Shown one piece after another: positions 11,010 to 20,997 of a stretch of 24,583 nucleotides of DNA. How positions within the stretch are numbered: position 1 is the first letter of the stretch; the number at the start of each line of letters is the position of its first letter. Under the pieces are notes generated by a model. It was not told the DNA's origin. It did not search any database and saw only the letters and a list, made by a program, of their open reading frames with translations. The translations under genes were made by a program, and so were the position numbers. The DNA comes from a virus: positions 1-24,583 of IMG/VR virus record IMGVR_UViG_3300021961_000607; one strand, 5' to 3'.

Positions 11010-11729
11010 ATGCCTTTACCTAAGATTGCTACACCAACTTATGAACTTGAATTGCCATCAACAGGAGAGACAATTCAATATAGACCATTCCTGGTTAAGG
11101 AAGAAAAACTGCTTGTAATTGCTTTAGAGAGTGAAGACAATAAGCAAATTACAACCGCAATCAAAACTGTAATTAAGAATTGTATTCTTACAAAGAACAT
11201 TAAAGTAGAATTACTTCCTACTTTTGATATTGAATTTTTGTTTCTCAACATTCGTGGTAAGTCTGTTGGAGAAGAATTAGATATTAATATCATTTGTCCT
11301 GATGATGGTGAAACAGAAGTTCCTGTGAAGATTAATCTTGATGATATCCAAGTTCAAAAGAGTGAAGAGCATTCAAATAGAATCAAAATTGATGACAAAA
11401 TTATGATGGAAATGAAGTATCCATCGCTGGATCAATTTATTAAGAACAATTTTGACTTTGATAATAAGAATGCGATGGATCAATCGTTTGATTTGATTGG
11501 TTCTTGTATTGATAAGATCTATACAGAAGATGAAGTCTGGGCAACAGCAGATGTTTCTAAGAAAGAATTAAATGAATTCTTGGAGTCTATGAATTCTTCT
11601 CAGTTTAAAGATATTGAAAAATTCTTTGAAACGATGCCTAAACTTTCTCATACTATTAAGGTTACCAACCCAAACACACAAGTTGAAAGTGAAGTTGTTC
11701 TTGAGGGCTTAGCATCTTTTTTCGCGTAG
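11010..11729 (+). CDS. 26: gp26 baseplate hub / tail assembly protein
   Basis: The 239-residue product matches the T4 gp26 family (T4_baseplate): MPLPKIATPTYELELPSTGE at the start, then YRPFLVKEEKLLVIALESED (25-44), which is the family signature, followed by an all-helical C-terminal half with repeated MxxxxFKDIEKFF-type segments and a KLSHTI strand. T4 gp26 is 208 residues and acts in hub assembly. It is the first gene of the hub operon. At its 3' end, TCT TTT TTC GCG TAG contains the -1 slippery heptamer T TTT TTC (11717-11723). A backward slip would avoid the stop and continue in the frame of the next ORF, giving a 303-residue fusion. This is the arrangement of tail assembly chaperones in long-tailed phages such as lambda. 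Confidence 0.88.
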   Translation: MPLPKIATPTYELELPSTGETIQYRPFLVKEEKLLVIALESEDNKQITTAIKTVIKNCILTKNIKVELLPTFDIEFLFLNIRGKSVGEELDINIICPDDGETEVPVKINLDDIQVQKSEEHSNRIKIDDKIMMEMKYPSLDQFIKNNFDFDNKNAMDQSFDLIGSCIDKIYTEDEVWATADVSKKELNEFLESMNSSQFKDIEKFFETMPKLSHTIKVTNPNTQVESEVVLEGLASFFA

Positions 11730-11747
11730 CGATGGTCCATATGGACC
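11703..11747 (+). promoter_or_regulatory. Candidate -1 programmed ribosomal frameshift signal
   Basis: Three parts are aligned as in known bacterial -1 sites: GAGGG (11703-11707, Shine-Dalgarno-like) nine bases before the heptamer; T TTT TTC (11717-11723), correctly phased as X XXY YYZ in the gp26 frame; and GGTCC-ATAT-GGACC (11734-11747), a perfect 14-base palindrome able to form a 5-bp hairpin ten bases after the heptamer. The gp26 stop (TAG 11727-11729) lies between heptamer and hairpin. After slippage the reading is CGC GTA GCG ATG, entering the 62-residue ORF in frame. The hairpin is short, so efficiency is uncertain. Confidence 0.7.
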
Positions 11748-11920
11748 TTGAGAATTATTTCCGTCTCAATTTTTCCTTGATGCAGTACCATAAATATTCT
11801 TTATGGGAGATTGAAAACTTGATACCGTGGGAAAGAGATATCTATGTTGCATTATTACAACAGCATCTTGAAGAAGAACAGTTAAAACAACAGCAGCAGA
11901 TGAGTAATGCCCACTTCTAA
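11732..11920 (+). CDS. Short ORF after gp26: probable tail-chaperone extension, at the T4 gp51 position
   Basis: The 62-residue frame (59 if started at ATG 11741) contains FSLMQYHKYSLWEIENLIPWERDIYVALL followed by a Glu/Gln-rich helix (QQHLEEEQLKQQQQ). 'LMxYxxYSxxEIExxxPxERxIYVxLL' resembles the second (frameshift) part of tail assembly chaperones in other tailed phages, a short helix-turn-helix with a charged tail. T4 places gene 51 here, but T4 gp51 is much longer, so I do not call it gp51. No Shine-Dalgarno precedes either ATG; GAGG at 11703 is too far. The main product is therefore probably the gp26 fusion made by the frameshift at 11717-11723. Its end overlaps the next gene by 14 bases. 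Confidence 0.75.
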   Translation: MVHMDLENYFRLNFSLMQYHKYSLWEIENLIPWERDIYVALLQQHLEEEQLKQQQQMSNAHF

Positions 11921-14498
11921 GGAACTAAAAGATTTAGATTCACAACTTAAGAAGACAGTCATCTCTGCTGAAAGTTTTAAGAGAGGGAGTTCTTTTGATC
12001 TGTCAAAAAATTTCTCAAGTATTCATAAAAATATAGGAAGTCTTGCTGGACATACAAGGAAACTTGTTATTCGTGTTGGTGAAATAGAAAAAAAAGTTGA
12101 TAATAATTCAAGAAAGATTACGAGTCTTAAAAATATATCAAAGACTCAAAGCGGAAGAATAAGTGGTACAAATATTGGTGCAAAGTTACCTGGCGGTACT
12201 ACTTCTAATGTAGAAGAAAATATTGCTGCAATTGCAAAGTCAGTAAATTCTATTGCAGAAATATTTGCTGGAAGAAAAAAACTTGCTGATGATACTGCTG
12301 CTTATGAAAAAAGAAAAGCAGAGCAAGAGAAAAGGGGACTTGCTGAAAGTAAGTTAGAAAAAGTATTTAAAGGTATTGCTAAGACTGCAGAAAAAGTCAT
12401 AGCACCTGTAAAAAGTCTTCTTGATAGAATACTGGATTTTATTGGAACTGTCATTCTTGGAAGGATAGTATATAAAATTATTGAATGGATGGGTGATCCT
12501 AAAAATCAGAGTAAAGTAAAATCAATAATACGTTTCTTTAGTGATTGGGGACCAACTCTATTATCACTTTATATTGTATTCGGAACTTCATTTGGTAAGT
12601 TTGCCAGGGGATTAATATCTCTCGTTATAAAAAGTACTGTTAGACTTGGCGCAGCAGTTGCTGGACTTGCGGTAAAGGCTGGTATTGGGAAAGCGGGTGG
12701 TAAGTTATCTAAGGTTGCTGGTTTTCTTGGTGGTAGAAAAGGAAAACTTCTTGCTGCTGGATTAGAGACTGCTATTACTGTTGGTGGCACGATGGCTTTA
12801 AGCAATACGCTTAAAGGTGATGGTGGAAGTCAACAAAAAGCACAAGGTCTTTCTGGTGGTGGATATGTAAGACCAAGATTCCGTGCGTTTAGTGGTGGTG
12901 GATTTAACTTCAAAGGTATGATGGGTGGCGCTGGAATGGGCGCTATGTTTGGACCACTTGGTATGCTTCTTGGTGGAGCTATGGGTGGTTCAAGTGGATT
13001 TGTAAGTGGTCCAGGTGGACCAAAAGATGATAAAATTCCCGCTATGCTTTCTGATGGTGAATTTGTCATGTCTGCTGGTGCTGTTCAAAAGTATGGTGTT
13101 GATACTTTTGAGCAGATGAATGCTGCTGGAGGTGGAACAAACCAACCAAAGATTGTTTCTGGAATTCCCCACGCTTATGGTGGTGGTTTATTTGGAAAAG
13201 ATCCTGGTGAAGGTGGAGTTACAACTAATACACCATTTGTAAAGGATCCATTTGGTGCAATTAGTCGTTTTATAAAATTTAAATTTGGTGCTGATGTAGG
13301 TAAACAATCAACCTGGGGTGTACCTACTATTCCACAAAGAGGGCCTCAACCAAAGGTTTCAAGTGGATCTTTGATCACAGATCCTGTTGGTGCTGTTGCA
13401 AGAATTGCAAACAATATGGGAATAAGAACTCCTGATGTCCCTACATCTACCTCATCAAAACAACCATCATCGGGGTCTGGTAGTAATGTCTTTACCAGAG
13501 TTATGGATGCAGTTCGTAGTAAAACATCTGGTTCTGGAAAACCTGAAGCTAAGACTGGTGAAAAAGGATTCTTCCAAGAACTTCAAGAGAAACTTACTGG
13601 ATCTGGCGCAGCAACTTATAGAGATGCTGGATCAATCTATGCAAAGCAAATGCTTGGTGGATTTGGTGGTCCTGTAAGTGAAAGAGATCTATCAAAAGAA
13701 TCTCAAGCAGAACTTCAAAAAGCAATACAAAGAGCAAAGAAAAGAACTGGTTCTGAAATTTCAAAAGCAGAAGCAAAGATTAAAGAACTTCGCGCTCAAG
13801 GAGCAAAGGATGGAAATCCAGCACTTGAGACTCAGAAGAGTTTCTTAAAGAAATTAAAAGCAGGTGGCATCAGAGTTCAGTATGCTGATTATGCTGACGA
13901 AAAGGGTCAGATGAGCGAGTCTGCAAAGAACGCAAAAAATATTCTTGGTCAGTTTTGGGCTAACCAAAGAAGCAAAGAAGAAGGTGGTGGATATCGTATT
14001 GAAGATAAGTATGACTTTGATATGTTTAAGAAGAAGGATGAGAAGAGTGGTAAGATGCGTGATATGAATATGGGTGAACTACTTAAAGAAGGTGTTTTTG
14101 GAAAAGGAAAAACAGTTCAGCAAAGACTTCAAGCAGCATATTTGTTAAATCCTTTTAGAGGAAAAGGTGATGTTGATATGGTTCTTGGTGGTAAGAGAAC
14201 TGCGTCAGAGTCTTTAGGTTTGTCTGCGAGTAAAACTTTATTGGGTGGAATGCTTGGGATATCTGGTAATCCCCAAGCAAAACAAGCTCAATTAGCAAAA
14301 AGACAACCAAGTAGAGGAAGAGGTGCAAGACCAGTTAAACCTCCAGCAAAACCAGCAGCAAAAGTTGTTTATGGTCCTCCAGTTCCAAAACCAAAAAATA
14401 AAAGAGGTGGTGGCACAACCAAAACAAAAACACCGAACTTTGGTGCAACTTGTCCTAAGAATGGCAACCAAAAGAAAAAAGTTCTTGGTATATTCTAG
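11907..14498 (+). CDS. Large tape-measure/hub-like virion protein (863 aa)
   Basis: Layout: an N-terminal helical, coiled-coil-like part (about 1-165, with KLVIRVGEIEKKVDNNSRKI); a hydrophobic region at about 170-300, including LLDRILDFIGTVILGRIVYK (171-190) and further Ala/Gly-rich segments; a Gly-rich linker; then GPKDDKIPAMLSDGEFVMSA (371-390) followed by GAVQKYG, a motif typical of tape-measure C-terminal parts. The remainder is low-complexity, and the last 70 residues are strongly basic and Pro-rich (PSRGRGARPVKPP). It directly follows the chaperone-like genes, the place of the tape measure in long-tailed phages. T4 gp29 (590 aa) is the functional counterpart by position, but sequence identity is not evident. 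The start overlaps the previous ORF. It shares a hydrophobic block with the next gene. Confidence 0.65.
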   Translation: MPTSKELKDLDSQLKKTVISAESFKRGSSFDLSKNFSSIHKNIGSLAGHTRKLVIRVGEIEKKVDNNSRKITSLKNISKTQSGRISGTNIGAKLPGGTTSNVEENIAAIAKSVNSIAEIFAGRKKLADDTAAYEKRKAEQEKRGLAESKLEKVFKGIAKTAEKVIAPVKSLLDRILDFIGTVILGRIVYKIIEWMGDPKNQSKVKSIIRFFSDWGPTLLSLYIVFGTSFGKFARGLISLVIKSTVRLGAAVAGLAVKAGIGKAGGKLSKVAGFLGGRKGKLLAAGLETAITVGGTMALSNTLKGDGGSQQKAQGLSGGGYVRPRFRAFSGGGFNFKGMMGGAGMGAMFGPLGMLLGGAMGGSSGFVSGPGGPKDDKIPAMLSDGEFVMSAGAVQKYGVDTFEQMNAAGGGTNQPKIVSGIPHAYGGGLFGKDPGEGGVTTNTPFVKDPFGAISRFIKFKFGADVGKQSTWGVPTIPQRGPQPKVSSGSLITDPVGAVARIANNMGIRTPDVPTSTSSKQPSSGSGSNVFTRVMDAVRSKTSGSGKPEAKTGEKGFFQELQEKLTGSGAATYRDAGSIYAKQMLGGFGGPVSERDLSKESQAELQKAIQRAKKRTGSEISKAEAKIKELRAQGAKDGNPALETQKSFLKKLKAGGIRVQYADYADEKGQMSESAKNAKNILGQFWANQRSKEEGGGYRIEDKYDFDMFKKKDEKSGKMRDMNMGELLKEGVFGKGKTVQQRLQAAYLLNPFRGKGDVDMVLGGKRTASESLGLSASKTLLGGMLGISGNPQAKQAQLAKRQPSRGRGARPVKPPAKPAAKVVYGPPVPKPKNKRGGGTTKTKTPNFGATCPKNGNQKKKVLGIF

Positions 14499-14510: not shown

Positions 14511-17500
14511 ATGGCAATTACTTCAGATAAACTTCTAAACAGAACAACAAAAAATATTGACCAGAAAATAATATCTTCTGGTGGTTCTTCTAATGTAGTT
14601 CTCACAAAGAAGTCTGTTAAGGATATTGCTTCTATTAAAGTAAATGTAATCAAGATTGAAAGTATCTTAAAAGGAACTCTTGCTGCAGAAAAGAAATCTC
14701 TTGATACAAAGAAAAGACAAGAGAGTGGAAAGAGAAGAGAAAAACAAGAAGAAAAGTTAGAGACAAAACCACAGGCAGAAAAAGGACCAATCAAGATGCC
14801 AAAAGTCCCACGAATGGGATTTCTTGATTGGATTAAAAACTTTATTGGTAATGTAATTCTTGGATATTTTGCTGTGAGACTGGTAGATTTTTTACCAAAG
14901 ATAAAACCAATATTAAAGTTTCTTGGGTCTGCTGCGGACTTCGTTATTGATGTTGGCGGTAAACTTTTAGATGGTCTTGTAACCTTTATTGACTGGGGAT
15001 ACAAAGCGATTGACTTCACCCGTGGTATGATGAAGACTATTGGTGGTGAAAACTTCGCCAAAGTCTTTGATGGGTTTACTGGTGCTGTTGGAACACTTGT
15101 AGAGACTGCCATTATTGCTGCTACGGTTCTTGCAACTCAAGGTGATGATGGTGTTCTTGATATTGGTATGGATATGCTGAAGGACCGATTGCTTGGTCAA
15201 GGTGTGAAACAGGCAGGTAAGCAAGTTGCCACTCAAGCAGCAGGACAAGTTGGAAGAACTGCTGGACTGGGTGTTGGCACAGCAGCCGCTATTATTTCTG
15301 GTGCTGGATTACTGGCATCCGCTTTGGGTGAGGGTGCTTTCCAACTCCGTGGTGTTATAGAGAAACCTATTAAAGGAACTCAAAAGGAGTTTGAAAAGTA
15401 TAGTTGGTTAGATCCTAGAAAGTACTTGGCAGGTGCTGCTAACTTGGGATTTAGGTTGTTGCTGGAACCGTTCATGGCTTTGGGCACTATGCTTGACATT
15501 CTTGGAGCTCCGTTTAGATATGCAATAGAACTTATCCGTTATCCTTTCCTAAGTGAAGAGGATAAGATAAAGCAAGCAAAAAATCTTGCTAAATTTGATG
15601 CAAGAATCCGTGAAGATTTTAGGAAAGGATTAAATAGACTCACCTTAGGTTTTGCATTCAAAGAAAAGGGATCTTTCGGAAACATTTATGGAAACAAAGG
15701 TGCTCAAAAAGAAATGATGGGCAAGATGGCTGGTGGCGGAATAACAAGAGGTGGAAAGAGAGTAACTGGAGCAAGGAGAACTGTAAGTAAAGGTTCAAAA
15801 GGAAAGTATAAGAGAGTAGTTTCTAGAAAACCTGGAGAGGTTGAAATCAAACCAGGTGCTGATGTTGGTGGAGAGGAAAAATTATTTGGATTATTTCCTA
15901 AACCAAAACTACCAGACTTCTTAAACCCATTTAAAACTATTGAAAATACTGGTAAAGAACTTGGTAAGAGTGATTATTTTGGACCTATTCTTGCAATTAC
16001 CTCTAAGATATTATTAGGACAAAAACCAAACCAAAAAGATTATGAAAATGTTGGTCTTGGTATAAACCTTTTGGTTTCTAAAGGTATACAAGATGGTCAA
16101 TTGAAAGGTGGTGTCGCTGCAGCATTCGCTGAGGGTGGTTTCGTTGATCCGGAAACATTAAATGCTGTCAATAGTGGTGGTGATATTAGTGACTGGGTTG
16201 CAACATCATTTAAAGATGCTACTGAATCTAATGCACAAAAAACTCTTAGGCAAATACAGGAAAATTTGAGATTGAAAAAAGAAGGTGATGGTGAAACTGG
16301 AAAATCTACAACTGATGAAAGTATGCCAGAGGGAACTGGAGCACTTGTAGGTAATACAAATGCTGAAAAAGTTTTTAACTTCTTAAAGGGTGCTGGTTTT
16401 ACTGAGCAAGCAGCTGCTGGTGTTATTGGTAATTTGATGCAGGAGTCTGGAGTAAATCCAAAATCAAAACAACTTGGTGGTGGTCCTGGTAGAGGTATTA
16501 TGCAATGGGGAACTGGACCAGGAAGTGGTGGTAGATGGGATGCATTAGTTGCTTGGGCATCTTCTTCTGGAAAAGATCCTTGGTCTCTTGATACTCAAGT
16601 TGAATGGATGATGAAAGAGATGAGATCTTATGGAACTTATAATAGATTGAAAGGAGTTACTGATGTAAAGAAAGCTGTTGTGATCTTTGAAAGTGAAATG
16701 GAAAAGGCTGGAGTTCCAAATTATCCAAGAAGATATCAGTATGCTGCAGATGCTTTAGCAAGTTTTGGTGGCGGTAAAGCTGGTGGTATGAAGGATGCTG
16801 GTGAAGGTGGTGTAGTTGGTGGAGGAGGAAACTTTGTTCAAGGTAACTCTGGATCTTCATATGGTGTACACTTCCATATAGGACCAGGTAATCAAACAAA
16901 AGGAAATATATTACAACCACAATATAATGCTGATGCAAGAGCAAGTGCTTTGAAAGCATTTATGCAATTTGTTGGACAAAGAAGTATCTACCTTGGTAGA
17001 AGTGGTGTTTCAGTTCCTAAAGGTAAAAAAATAAGTTCAGCAGAAGCATCAAAACTTATTGCTGCTGAACAAAGAGCGCACTCTGCATCTGGTTCTCAAG
17101 GTGGAATTGATATGCAGGTTGATTTTGAATCAAAGGTTGGTTTTCCCTTAAAGACATTTGGATTAAAATATAGACCAAATGGATTTGGTGTAAGTGCAGA
17201 TATTTCTGGATCAAATTCGTTTGTTGCTCATGGTAGATATGATGAGAAAGGAAAAGTTGCTCCTCAAGAAGGATTGAGAATTTATGGTGATGGTGGTATT
17301 ACTCCAAATTATCCTCACTTAGCGATACTTGGTGATAAAAATCAAAGTGAAATTGTTATTGACGGTGATAGTGCAGGCCCTGCAAAGAACATGCTTCTTG
17401 CTATTAATCAAGCAAAGGGATATAAAGGAGTGATGCAAGCAATTCAACAGTATGCTCCATATGATGCATTAGCACCTCAGACAATTGTTATGGAATCTCC

Positions 17501-17612
17501 AGATACTTCCATGGATGATGATTATGAAGATTCTGGATCTTCTGGACTTTCTATGGCATTTGCTGGTGGTGGAAATGATGATCCGTTTGATACCTTGTAT
17601 CAAGGTGGGTAA
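14511..17612 (+). CDS. Tape-measure-like tail protein with tail lysozyme domain (1033 aa)
   Basis: The ribosome site AGGAGATAAAG precedes ATG 14511. Domains: charged coiled coil (about 30-95); hydrophobic block FLDWIKNFIGNVILGYFAVRL (104-124), paralogous to one in the previous protein; Ala/Gly-rich hydrophobic region (about 190-280); linker; phage tail lysozyme domain (Phage_lysozyme2-type, about 617-753) with NAEKVFNFLKGAGF, a VIGNLMQESGVNP block (E645 the likely catalytic Glu), GIMQWG and FESEMEKAGVPNYPRRYQYA; then a histidine-rich domain (about 780-930) with HFH (787-789), H857/D867 and AHG (906-908), possibly an M23-like peptidase; and a tape-measure-like end with PHLAILGDKNQSEIVI (935-950). 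It would digest peptidoglycan during DNA entry, replacing the lysozyme that T4 carries in gp5. Confidence 0.8.
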   Translation: MAITSDKLLNRTTKNIDQKIISSGGSSNVVLTKKSVKDIASIKVNVIKIESILKGTLAAEKKSLDTKKRQESGKRREKQEEKLETKPQAEKGPIKMPKVPRMGFLDWIKNFIGNVILGYFAVRLVDFLPKIKPILKFLGSAADFVIDVGGKLLDGLVTFIDWGYKAIDFTRGMMKTIGGENFAKVFDGFTGAVGTLVETAIIAATVLATQGDDGVLDIGMDMLKDRLLGQGVKQAGKQVATQAAGQVGRTAGLGVGTAAAIISGAGLLASALGEGAFQLRGVIEKPIKGTQKEFEKYSWLDPRKYLAGAANLGFRLLLEPFMALGTMLDILGAPFRYAIELIRYPFLSEEDKIKQAKNLAKFDARIREDFRKGLNRLTLGFAFKEKGSFGNIYGNKGAQKEMMGKMAGGGITRGGKRVTGARRTVSKGSKGKYKRVVSRKPGEVEIKPGADVGGEEKLFGLFPKPKLPDFLNPFKTIENTGKELGKSDYFGPILAITSKILLGQKPNQKDYENVGLGINLLVSKGIQDGQLKGGVAAAFAEGGFVDPETLNAVNSGGDISDWVATSFKDATESNAQKTLRQIQENLRLKKEGDGETGKSTTDESMPEGTGALVGNTNAEKVFNFLKGAGFTEQAAAGVIGNLMQESGVNPKSKQLGGGPGRGIMQWGTGPGSGGRWDALVAWASSSGKDPWSLDTQVEWMMKEMRSYGTYNRLKGVTDVKKAVVIFESEMEKAGVPNYPRRYQYAADALASFGGGKAGGMKDAGEGGVVGGGGNFVQGNSGSSYGVHFHIGPGNQTKGNILQPQYNADARASALKAFMQFVGQRSIYLGRSGVSVPKGKKISSAEASKLIAAEQRAHSASGSQGGIDMQVDFESKVGFPLKTFGLKYRPNGFGVSADISGSNSFVAHGRYDEKGKVAPQEGLRIYGDGGITPNYPHLAILGDKNQSEIVIDGDSAGPAKNMLLAINQAKGYKGVMQAIQQYAPYDALAPQTIVMESPDTSMDDDYEDSGSSGLSMAFAGGGNDDPFDTLYQGG

Positions 17613-19212: not shown

Positions 19213-20997
19213 ATGGAAGGAGGATCTTTATTTAATCCAGGTTTCTTAGGTGGTAGTTTTCTCTGGTGGATTGGTCAGATTGCTGATGATTCCACCTGGA
19301 GAGATAACATTCTGCCTGGAAAATTTGAAAGTAAAGATTCTATTCCTGGTTGGGGTAGAAGATATAAGGTAAGAATTATTGGTCTCCATGATAAAGAAGA
19401 GGAGACTATTTCATCAGATCAACTTCCATGGGCTCAGGTAATGTATCCTGTGACTGGTGGTGGAGGTCAAACAAATGCAGGAGCAACACCAAATCTAAGA
19501 CAAGGTAATTTTGTTTTTGGATTCTTCCTTGATGGTCAGGATCAACAAGTTCCTGTTATCATGGGAGTGCTTGGTAATAATGCACAAACAGCACTCAAGA
19601 CAAAGATTGGAGTTAATGATTCCAATTTTGCTGCGACAAGTGGATATGCTCAAGGTAAGGAATCAAAAGGAAGTGCTCAAGAAAAGGTTCCTGATGAGGG
19701 TCTTGTAACCACCAAACCAAAAGGTCAGCAAGCATCTCAACAAACTGCTACTCCTCCTCCGGGAGTTAAACTAAATCAGTTTGGACTGAGACCTGATATT
19801 CCTCTTACTAAAGAGCAGTTAACAGTTGCACAGCAAGCAAGACAGACTGCAAGAGATAAAGGTTTACCTCCAGAACAGGTTGAAGCAGCAGCACAGCAAG
19901 CAGTTGCAGATCTGATTAAGAGTGATAAGCAGCAGTCAAACTCTAAAGATGCTCCAGCTAAACCAGGAGCAACGAAAGAAAACGTTGATGCTGTTCATGA
20001 GCAGAGTATAAGTGATGTAAAACGTGAAGATAAAATGCAAGAGAAAATCTCTATGCTTAAACCATGTGATATTGTTGAATCTGCCATGAAAGGGATTCAA
20101 ACCGAGATTGAGAATGTGACAAGAAAAATTGAAAAGTATATAAAAGCAATCAATAGTTATATTGATGCAGCATCAAACACTATCTCTAGTTTGCAAAAAG
20201 TTATTGCTGATGCTGCATGTATAATTGCAAAATATATGAAAATACTTTTTGATAAGATTATGGAATATGTTTTGAAATTATTAAACAAACAACTTACCAA
20301 AATTGTATCTGCGATGCCATCAAGCATGAGACAAATGTTTGCTGATATCAAAGAGATTTTAATGGAATTAATCTTGTGTCTTTATAACAAAATTACGAAT
20401 GGTCTTTGCGGATTAATTCAAGGTCTCTTAGATAAAGCTCTCAAACCAAAAGAACTTGAAGCGGCTGCAAGAGCAAAGCAGTTTGATGATAAAGTTACTG
20501 TTCCCAAAGTACCGGTATGCGCTGCTGAAGATTTAGTTGGTCAAGCAATCGCAGCAAGTAAAGGACAAATTGATGATGCAAATAATGCTATCCTAGATAA
20601 CCTAAATGCATTCCTTGATGATATCCAAGGAGAACTTGCAGGAGTAAGTGGCGCATTATCTGATATTACTTCTCTGATTGGTGGTATTAGTGGAGCACTT
20701 ACTGCTGCTTTTGCTTTTGAAAATCTTAAGTTAAATGTTTTTGGTTGCGAACTAGCACCTAACTGTGCAGTTTCAGATTACTATACATTCTCTCGTGGTG
20801 GATCATCTGCGGCAACTAAAGATCAACCAAGTACTAAAGGTGTTGCTGATGTTGCTGCTAAACCAACAGATGCAACTGCTCCAGCAGAAACTCCATACGT
20901 AGGTCCAACAAAAGATACGAAGGACTTAAAAGTTGGAGAATCTAATGCAGAAACTAGAGCAGCAGCTTCTGAAGAAAGTGCTCTGACACTTTTCTAA
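19213..20997 (+). CDS. 5: gp5-like baseplate hub spike protein without lysozyme
   Basis: Residues about 15-127 form the gp5 OB-fold: FLWWIGQIADD, then GRRYKVRIIGLHDKEEE (48-64), DQLPWAQVMYPVTGGGG (69-85) and VFGFFLDGQDQQVPVIMGVLG (101-121), closely following T4 gp5 (WFVGVVED, GRVRVRVVGLH, LPWMSVIQPIT, GHFLD, VLGTYG). The T4 lysozyme domain is missing, and so is the VxGxxxxx beta-helix that makes the needle. Instead there is a Gln/Ala-rich linker (about 160-270), a long helical, partly hydrophobic region (about 280-430) with several cysteines, and a Thr/Ala/Lys-rich tail. At 594 residues it is similar in length to T4 gp5 (575) but differently composed. The ATG at 19213 lacks a clear ribosome site; coupling to the upstream gene is likely. 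Confidence 0.82.
   Translation: MEGGSLFNPGFLGGSFLWWIGQIADDSTWRDNILPGKFESKDSIPGWGRRYKVRIIGLHDKEEETISSDQLPWAQVMYPVTGGGGQTNAGATPNLRQGNFVFGFFLDGQDQQVPVIMGVLGNNAQTALKTKIGVNDSNFAATSGYAQGKESKGSAQEKVPDEGLVTTKPKGQQASQQTATPPPGVKLNQFGLRPDIPLTKEQLTVAQQARQTARDKGLPPEQVEAAAQQAVADLIKSDKQQSNSKDAPAKPGATKENVDAVHEQSISDVKREDKMQEKISMLKPCDIVESAMKGIQTEIENVTRKIEKYIKAINSYIDAASNTISSLQKVIADAACIIAKYMKILFDKIMEYVLKLLNKQLTKIVSAMPSSMRQMFADIKEILMELILCLYNKITNGLCGLIQGLLDKALKPKELEAAARAKQFDDKVTVPKVPVCAAEDLVGQAIAASKGQIDDANNAILDNLNAFLDDIQGELAGVSGALSDITSLIGGISGALTAAFAFENLKLNVFGCELAPNCAVSDYYTFSRGGSSAATKDQPSTKGVADVAAKPTDATAPAETPYVGPTKDTKDLKVGESNAETRAAASEESALTLF

Follow-up and report, generated by a model that had tools for sequence, protein, structure and literature searches.

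A probable −1 programmed ribosomal frameshift joining gp26 to a gp51 domain in an uncultivated T4-like virus

On strong evidence from sequence comparison, we think it very probable that an uncultivated marine T4-like virus, one that infects photosynthetic bacteria, expresses a single tail chaperone gene in two versions through a −1 slip of some ribosomes. We hold with high confidence that −1 programmed ribosomal frameshifting near the end of gp26 would yield both tail-assembly chaperones, gp26 as the short form and gp26-gp51 as the long one. Most ribosomes translating gp26 would stop at the TAG at 11727 and release the short chaperone, and a minority would slip back by one base on T TTT TTC, where tRNA-Phe would re-pair TTT TTC as TTT TTT, assisted by an upstream Shine-Dalgarno-like (SD-like) GAGGG and a small downstream hairpin. 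The slipped ribosomes would read on in the −1 frame to produce gp26-gp51, the 303-residue long form. Short and long forms would then act as the tail-assembly chaperone pair for the putative tape-measure protein encoded next to them, as gpG and gpGT do in lambda.

Gene layout and the slippery heptamer

The DNA analysed here, which we call the window, comes from an uncultivated virus recorded in IMG/VR, is 24,583 bases long and bears a cyanophage-type T4-like tail gene cluster. Its gp26 gene (11010–11729, + strand, zero frame, 239 aa, TAG stop at 11727–11729), the putative short form of the tail-assembly chaperone (TAC-N), matches PF12322 T4_baseplate (E 1.8e-77) and phrog_150 (E 5.6e-81). The −1 frame extension (11723–11920, + strand, 65 codons plus stop, comprising RVA and a 62-aa gp51 homologue), which would supply the long-form (TAC-C) domain, matches phrog_634 (E 8.9e-27), a family named 'baseplate hub assembly catalyst', as well as the C-terminus of phrog_150 (241–281). 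Membership of the T4 gp26/gp51 family is thus marked in the window by both the PF12322 match and the gp51 domain match. Directly downstream, and overlapping the end of the −1 frame, is an 863-aa ORF (11907–14498, + strand) around which relatives keep the same gene order. The original prediction called the genes that follow tape-measure-like; this ORF matches PHROGs of tape measures weakly, at best with E 8e-11, which makes it a putative tape-measure gene. The second long ORF after gp26-gp51 (14511–17612) carries a Phage_lysozyme2 domain (PF18013, E 5.7e-30), and is distinct from the gp5-like OB-domain ORF at 19213–20997.

The codons at the 3′ end of gp26 are ...CTT GAG GGC TTA GCA TCT TTT TTC GCG TAG. 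Within them the slippery heptamer T TTT TTC (11717–11723, + strand) stands in the X XXY YYZ phase two codons before the stop, at the coordinates and in the phase that had been predicted. The reading proposed for a −1 slip is likewise confirmed on the sequence: CGC GTA GCG ATG leads into the 62-residue ORF and on to a stop at 11918–11920, giving a fusion of 303 residues (238+3+62) with the predicted junction peptide ...GLASFFRVAMVHMDLE...

The bare TTTTTTC is not rare in the window (14 copies on both strands, against 20 expected), and it is only conservation that makes the heptamer meaningful. Conservation in relatives had been set beforehand as a test of the prediction. Among the nearest relatives in IMG/VR, the 78 whose gp26 end could be read all have T TTT TTC and an identical −1 relation, and TTTTTTC or TTTTTTT is found in phase in 247/250 gp26 homologues, a set made up of database search matches and named phages. 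The carriers belong to the Kyanoviridae, several non-T4 Straboviridae and Emdodecavirus, and include Vibrio nt-1, Aeromonas 65 and Sinorhizobium phiM7. The heptamer was seen separately in Aeromonas PX29 and Xanthomonas X1, and in the cultured relative S-SM2, where the −1 frame was confirmed along with it. Most loci end the heptamer in C, and a minority have seven T. Both slip codons are invariant in 76 close relatives, which is true of only 1 of 25 other conserved degenerate codon columns. The pre-slip codon varies (AAT, TCT, AGT, GAT, GCT, ACT, GGT, CAT) and ends in T in 205/205 loci, while T-ending codons for those same residues make up 34–79% elsewhere in gp26. At five loci (L210, L244, L230, L229 and L184) the zero frame stops eight codons beyond the heptamer and the −1 frame is still kept, so proximity of the stop to the slip site is not a conserved property.

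Coding in the −1 frame

No stop interrupts the −1 frame for at least 57 codons in any of the 203 complete distinct loci, as the test of conservation had anticipated, and the two remaining frames close early in 205/205 loci. Of the 205 distinct loci, 58 have no ATG, GTG or TTG among their first 11 codons in −1; in this start-less stretch a common sequence, for example RIALFHNTLEGYYKTNF, is conserved. When single-base codon differences among these 58 loci are scored in the −1 frame, 5173 are synonymous and 1810 nonsynonymous, against 1439 synonymous and 5538 nonsynonymous in the zero frame; the counts are pairwise and not independent, and their direction is unambiguous. By this comparison the early stretch is constrained as protein when read in −1. 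The constraint, together with the existence of start-less loci, is a strong argument against free initiation as the general route to gp51.

On these data, what is annotated as cyanophage gp51 is wrongly labelled and represents a C-terminal domain, a correction that would apply to hundreds of genome annotations. Public gp51 annotations in S-RSM4, Aeromonas 65, Vibrio D479 and S-SM2 begin at internal codons, so that the conserved −1 domain is truncated in those entries (L082:2765–2899, L085:2792–2872, L090:2933–3025 and L265:1510–1683).

Stimulatory signals and alternative explanations

A perfect palindrome had been noted ten bases downstream of the heptamer. This is GGTCCATATGGACC (11734–11747, + strand, 10 nt after the heptamer), a candidate stem-loop GGUCC-AUAU-GGACC, and compensatory changes conserve the hairpin: within the window's clade, changes on both sides of the GGUCC/GGACC stem occur at 5/5 pairs (33 cells, against 8.9 when shuffled), and the covariation signal vanishes when the stem partners are slid. 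The hairpin is short, at 5 bp, and its 10-nt spacer slightly long. Its fold in the window has a z of −2.0, or −2.86 against a synonymous null. Over 97 thinned loci the 48 nt past the site fold more stably than a synonymous-codon null (mean z −1.9; Wilcoxon p 1.6e-15, a value that is optimistic as the loci are phylogenetically related), and a control region farther downstream gives +0.06 under the same null. A second predicted hairpin (11748–11769) is not claimed because no covariation was found when it was looked for there. In the S-RSM4 clade the hairpin pairs in 98% of cells, with variation too low for a covariation test. Judged by eye from the alignment, the hairpin in S-RSM4-like phages (L152, L157, L158, L164) seems to slide in register, to CCCUCU/AGAGGG, and the slid stems keep near the same position. 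Rfam gave no family at gathering strength at the site, and one sub-threshold match, to sR55, we take as chance.

Upstream, the SD-like GAGG of the original prediction is present as GAGGG (11703–11707, + strand), 9 nt before the heptamer. Within the window's clade, Glu encoded by GAA is followed by Gly as GGG in 19 of 24 cases, while Glu encoded by GAG is followed by any Gly codon (GGG in 8/75). This coupling (Fisher p 5e-10, and 2e-5 after thinning, both optimistic given the phylogenetic relatedness of the loci) is absent in the thinnest set of 40 loci. We read it as a sign of selection for a run of purines resembling an SD, a sign that is clear in no clade but that of the window; among S-RSM4-like phages the residue preceding the Gly is variable. 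Both types of stimulatory element, a downstream RNA structure and an upstream SD-like run, are therefore present as far as sequence alone can tell.

We also considered that gp51 might be a separate gene, ribosomes terminating at the TAG at 11727 and restarting at the ATG of the 62-aa ORF (11732–11734, + strand) to make a free 62-aa protein. Since this ATG is only 2 nt past the stop, free gp51 could also arise here by reinitiation, and databases do annotate gp51 as a gene in its own right. No SD-like sequence was found before the ATG at 11732, which agrees with the earlier observation that the short ORF has no ribosome site of its own. The prediction had also named a good independent start for the short ORF in relatives as something that would refute it, and this test too came out in its favour. 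Against reinitiation, many relatives have no usable start, as the 58 start-less loci attest, the stretch preceding the start is conserved as protein in the −1 frame, and the invariant heptamer would be left unexplained. We consider this account very improbable.

Transcriptional slippage on the run of six T would produce mRNAs one base shorter or longer that encode the fusion, and the homopolymer of six T, or of seven in a minority, is the kind of site on which this might occur. Six T is, however, short for efficient slippage by RNA polymerase, most loci keep C as the seventh base and preserve the X XXY YYZ phase, and the covarying downstream hairpin and SD-like element suit slippage by the ribosome, making us sceptical in the extreme of a transcriptional origin. 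It could further be argued that the heptamer is a chance outcome of a conserved Phe-Phe, TTTTTTC being common in an AT-rich window, and that the palindrome is a site acting at the DNA level. This is contradicted by codon invariance that goes beyond the Phe-Phe residues, by the coding constraint on the −1 frame and by the covariation of the stem, and we give it practically no weight. Returning to −1 ribosomal frameshifting, the conserved site, the frame relation, the coding constraint and the covariation of the hairpin are established by comparison of sequences; what we infer is that ribosomes slip there, how efficiently they do so, and that the products serve as chaperones.

Chaperone role and relation to known systems

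The proteins of the window are homologous to those of T4. T4 gp51 (249 aa) has a match over the full length of the gp26-type domain PF12322 (E 3.9e-52) and another to the gp51 domain phrog_634 (E 1.2e-23), and T4 gp26 matches PF12322 without the gp51 domain. T4 therefore carries the short and long forms as two genes, gp26 being the short form and gp51 a homologue of the short form with a C-terminal domain added. In both viruses the two forms share an N-terminal domain, as gp26 and the predicted gp26-gp51 in the window and with a pre-fused long-form homologue in T4. The difference is that the T4 genes are separate and lie on opposite strands, with no frameshift, whereas the window has one gene and a −1 frame. 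One paper lists the two T4 proteins as chaperones of hub assembly and reports gp51 as needed for assembly yet missing from the final particle (PMC3004832).

An AlphaFold2 model of gp26 (mean pLDDT 87) matched other T4-type baseplate hub proteins in a viral structure library. Its matches in the PDB were weak throughout; among those listed, the highest probability (0.69) was that of 2ob9, the tail assembly chaperone of HK97, with an E of 1.3 that is not significant. A gp26 profile search for solved structures found no relative by sequence, and neither an NCBIfam search nor a viral contig search with the Vibrio D528 protein gave a match.

The resemblance to lambda gpG/gpGT, the type of a tail-assembly chaperone frameshift family reportedly described by Xu et al. 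in 2004, extends to short and long forms from one gene, the proposed −1 slippage near the 3′ end, a tape-measure-like gene next in order and a long-form domain encoded in the −1 frame. No sequence relation of the window proteins to lambda gpG/gpGT was detectable in this analysis. The lambda slippery site is GGGAAAG, while the window has TTTTTTC together with an SD-like element and a covarying hairpin. The analogy originally drawn to lambda G/GT nevertheless stands, on the gene order, on the short and long forms and on the T4 long form as a pre-fused gene. By this analogy, and because of homology to T4, a lambda-type chaperone role is well supported, though not proven. In the flanking of a slippery heptamer by an upstream SD-like element and a downstream hairpin, the site also resembles that of E. 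coli dnaX, which differs in having the heptamer A AAA AAG in a cellular gene and in giving a shortened product. The tail chaperone −1 frameshifts of Vandenendeviridae and Andersonviridae likewise have a poly-T slippery motif and a −1 frame uninterrupted across divergent genomes; there the motif is GTTTTT and the phage families are different (PMC12846349).

A 2016 review described the lambda-type frameshift as conserved in long-tailed phages except T4 (PMC5009743). The original prediction was not aware of such a description for T4-like gp26, but novelty does not hold, since the tail-assembly chaperone genes of T4-like phages were identified by Vladimirov, Gautam and Davidson (Virology 2022, 566:9-15), as cited in two later papers (PMC10885494, PMC12846349). 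In the PRFect paper's summary of that study, some T4-like phages have a short gene and, fused, a long one (PMC10885494), and the Adele paper refers to it on slippery poly-T sequences in the chaperone genes of T4-like phages (PMC12846349). Going by these citing accounts, other tailed phages were already known to have frameshifted chaperones of this kind, T4's helper pair was described in 2022, and the novelty of our result is limited.

The sequences point to lambda-type frameshifting, with conserved signals, in many relatives of T4 beyond its own group, and marine phages gain a directly testable candidate frameshift site. More tentatively, as a reading that we think less likely than not, a −1 frameshift of single and ancient origin may be the ancestral T4-like chaperone route. 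Its heptamer would be TTTTTTC or a variant, often accompanied by a hairpin that covaries and, in certain clades, by an SD-like element, and it would reach the Ackermannviridae with other heptamers; the two-gene layout of T4 would then be derived, and the stimulatory signals previously undescribed. Were this so, most cyanophage gp51 (baseplate hub assembly catalyst) entries would be fragments of a frameshift protein.

Ackermannviridae-type gp26 homologues (L258:1570–1800, L259, L260, L261, L086, L088, L089) are without TTTTTTC and keep the −1 frame after G ATT TTC AT(T/C) TAA, some having C GTT TTT or A CTT TTC instead, which suggests frameshifting with other heptamers. In Salmonella phage GG32 the −1 region has no annotated gene, and its frame is without an early start.
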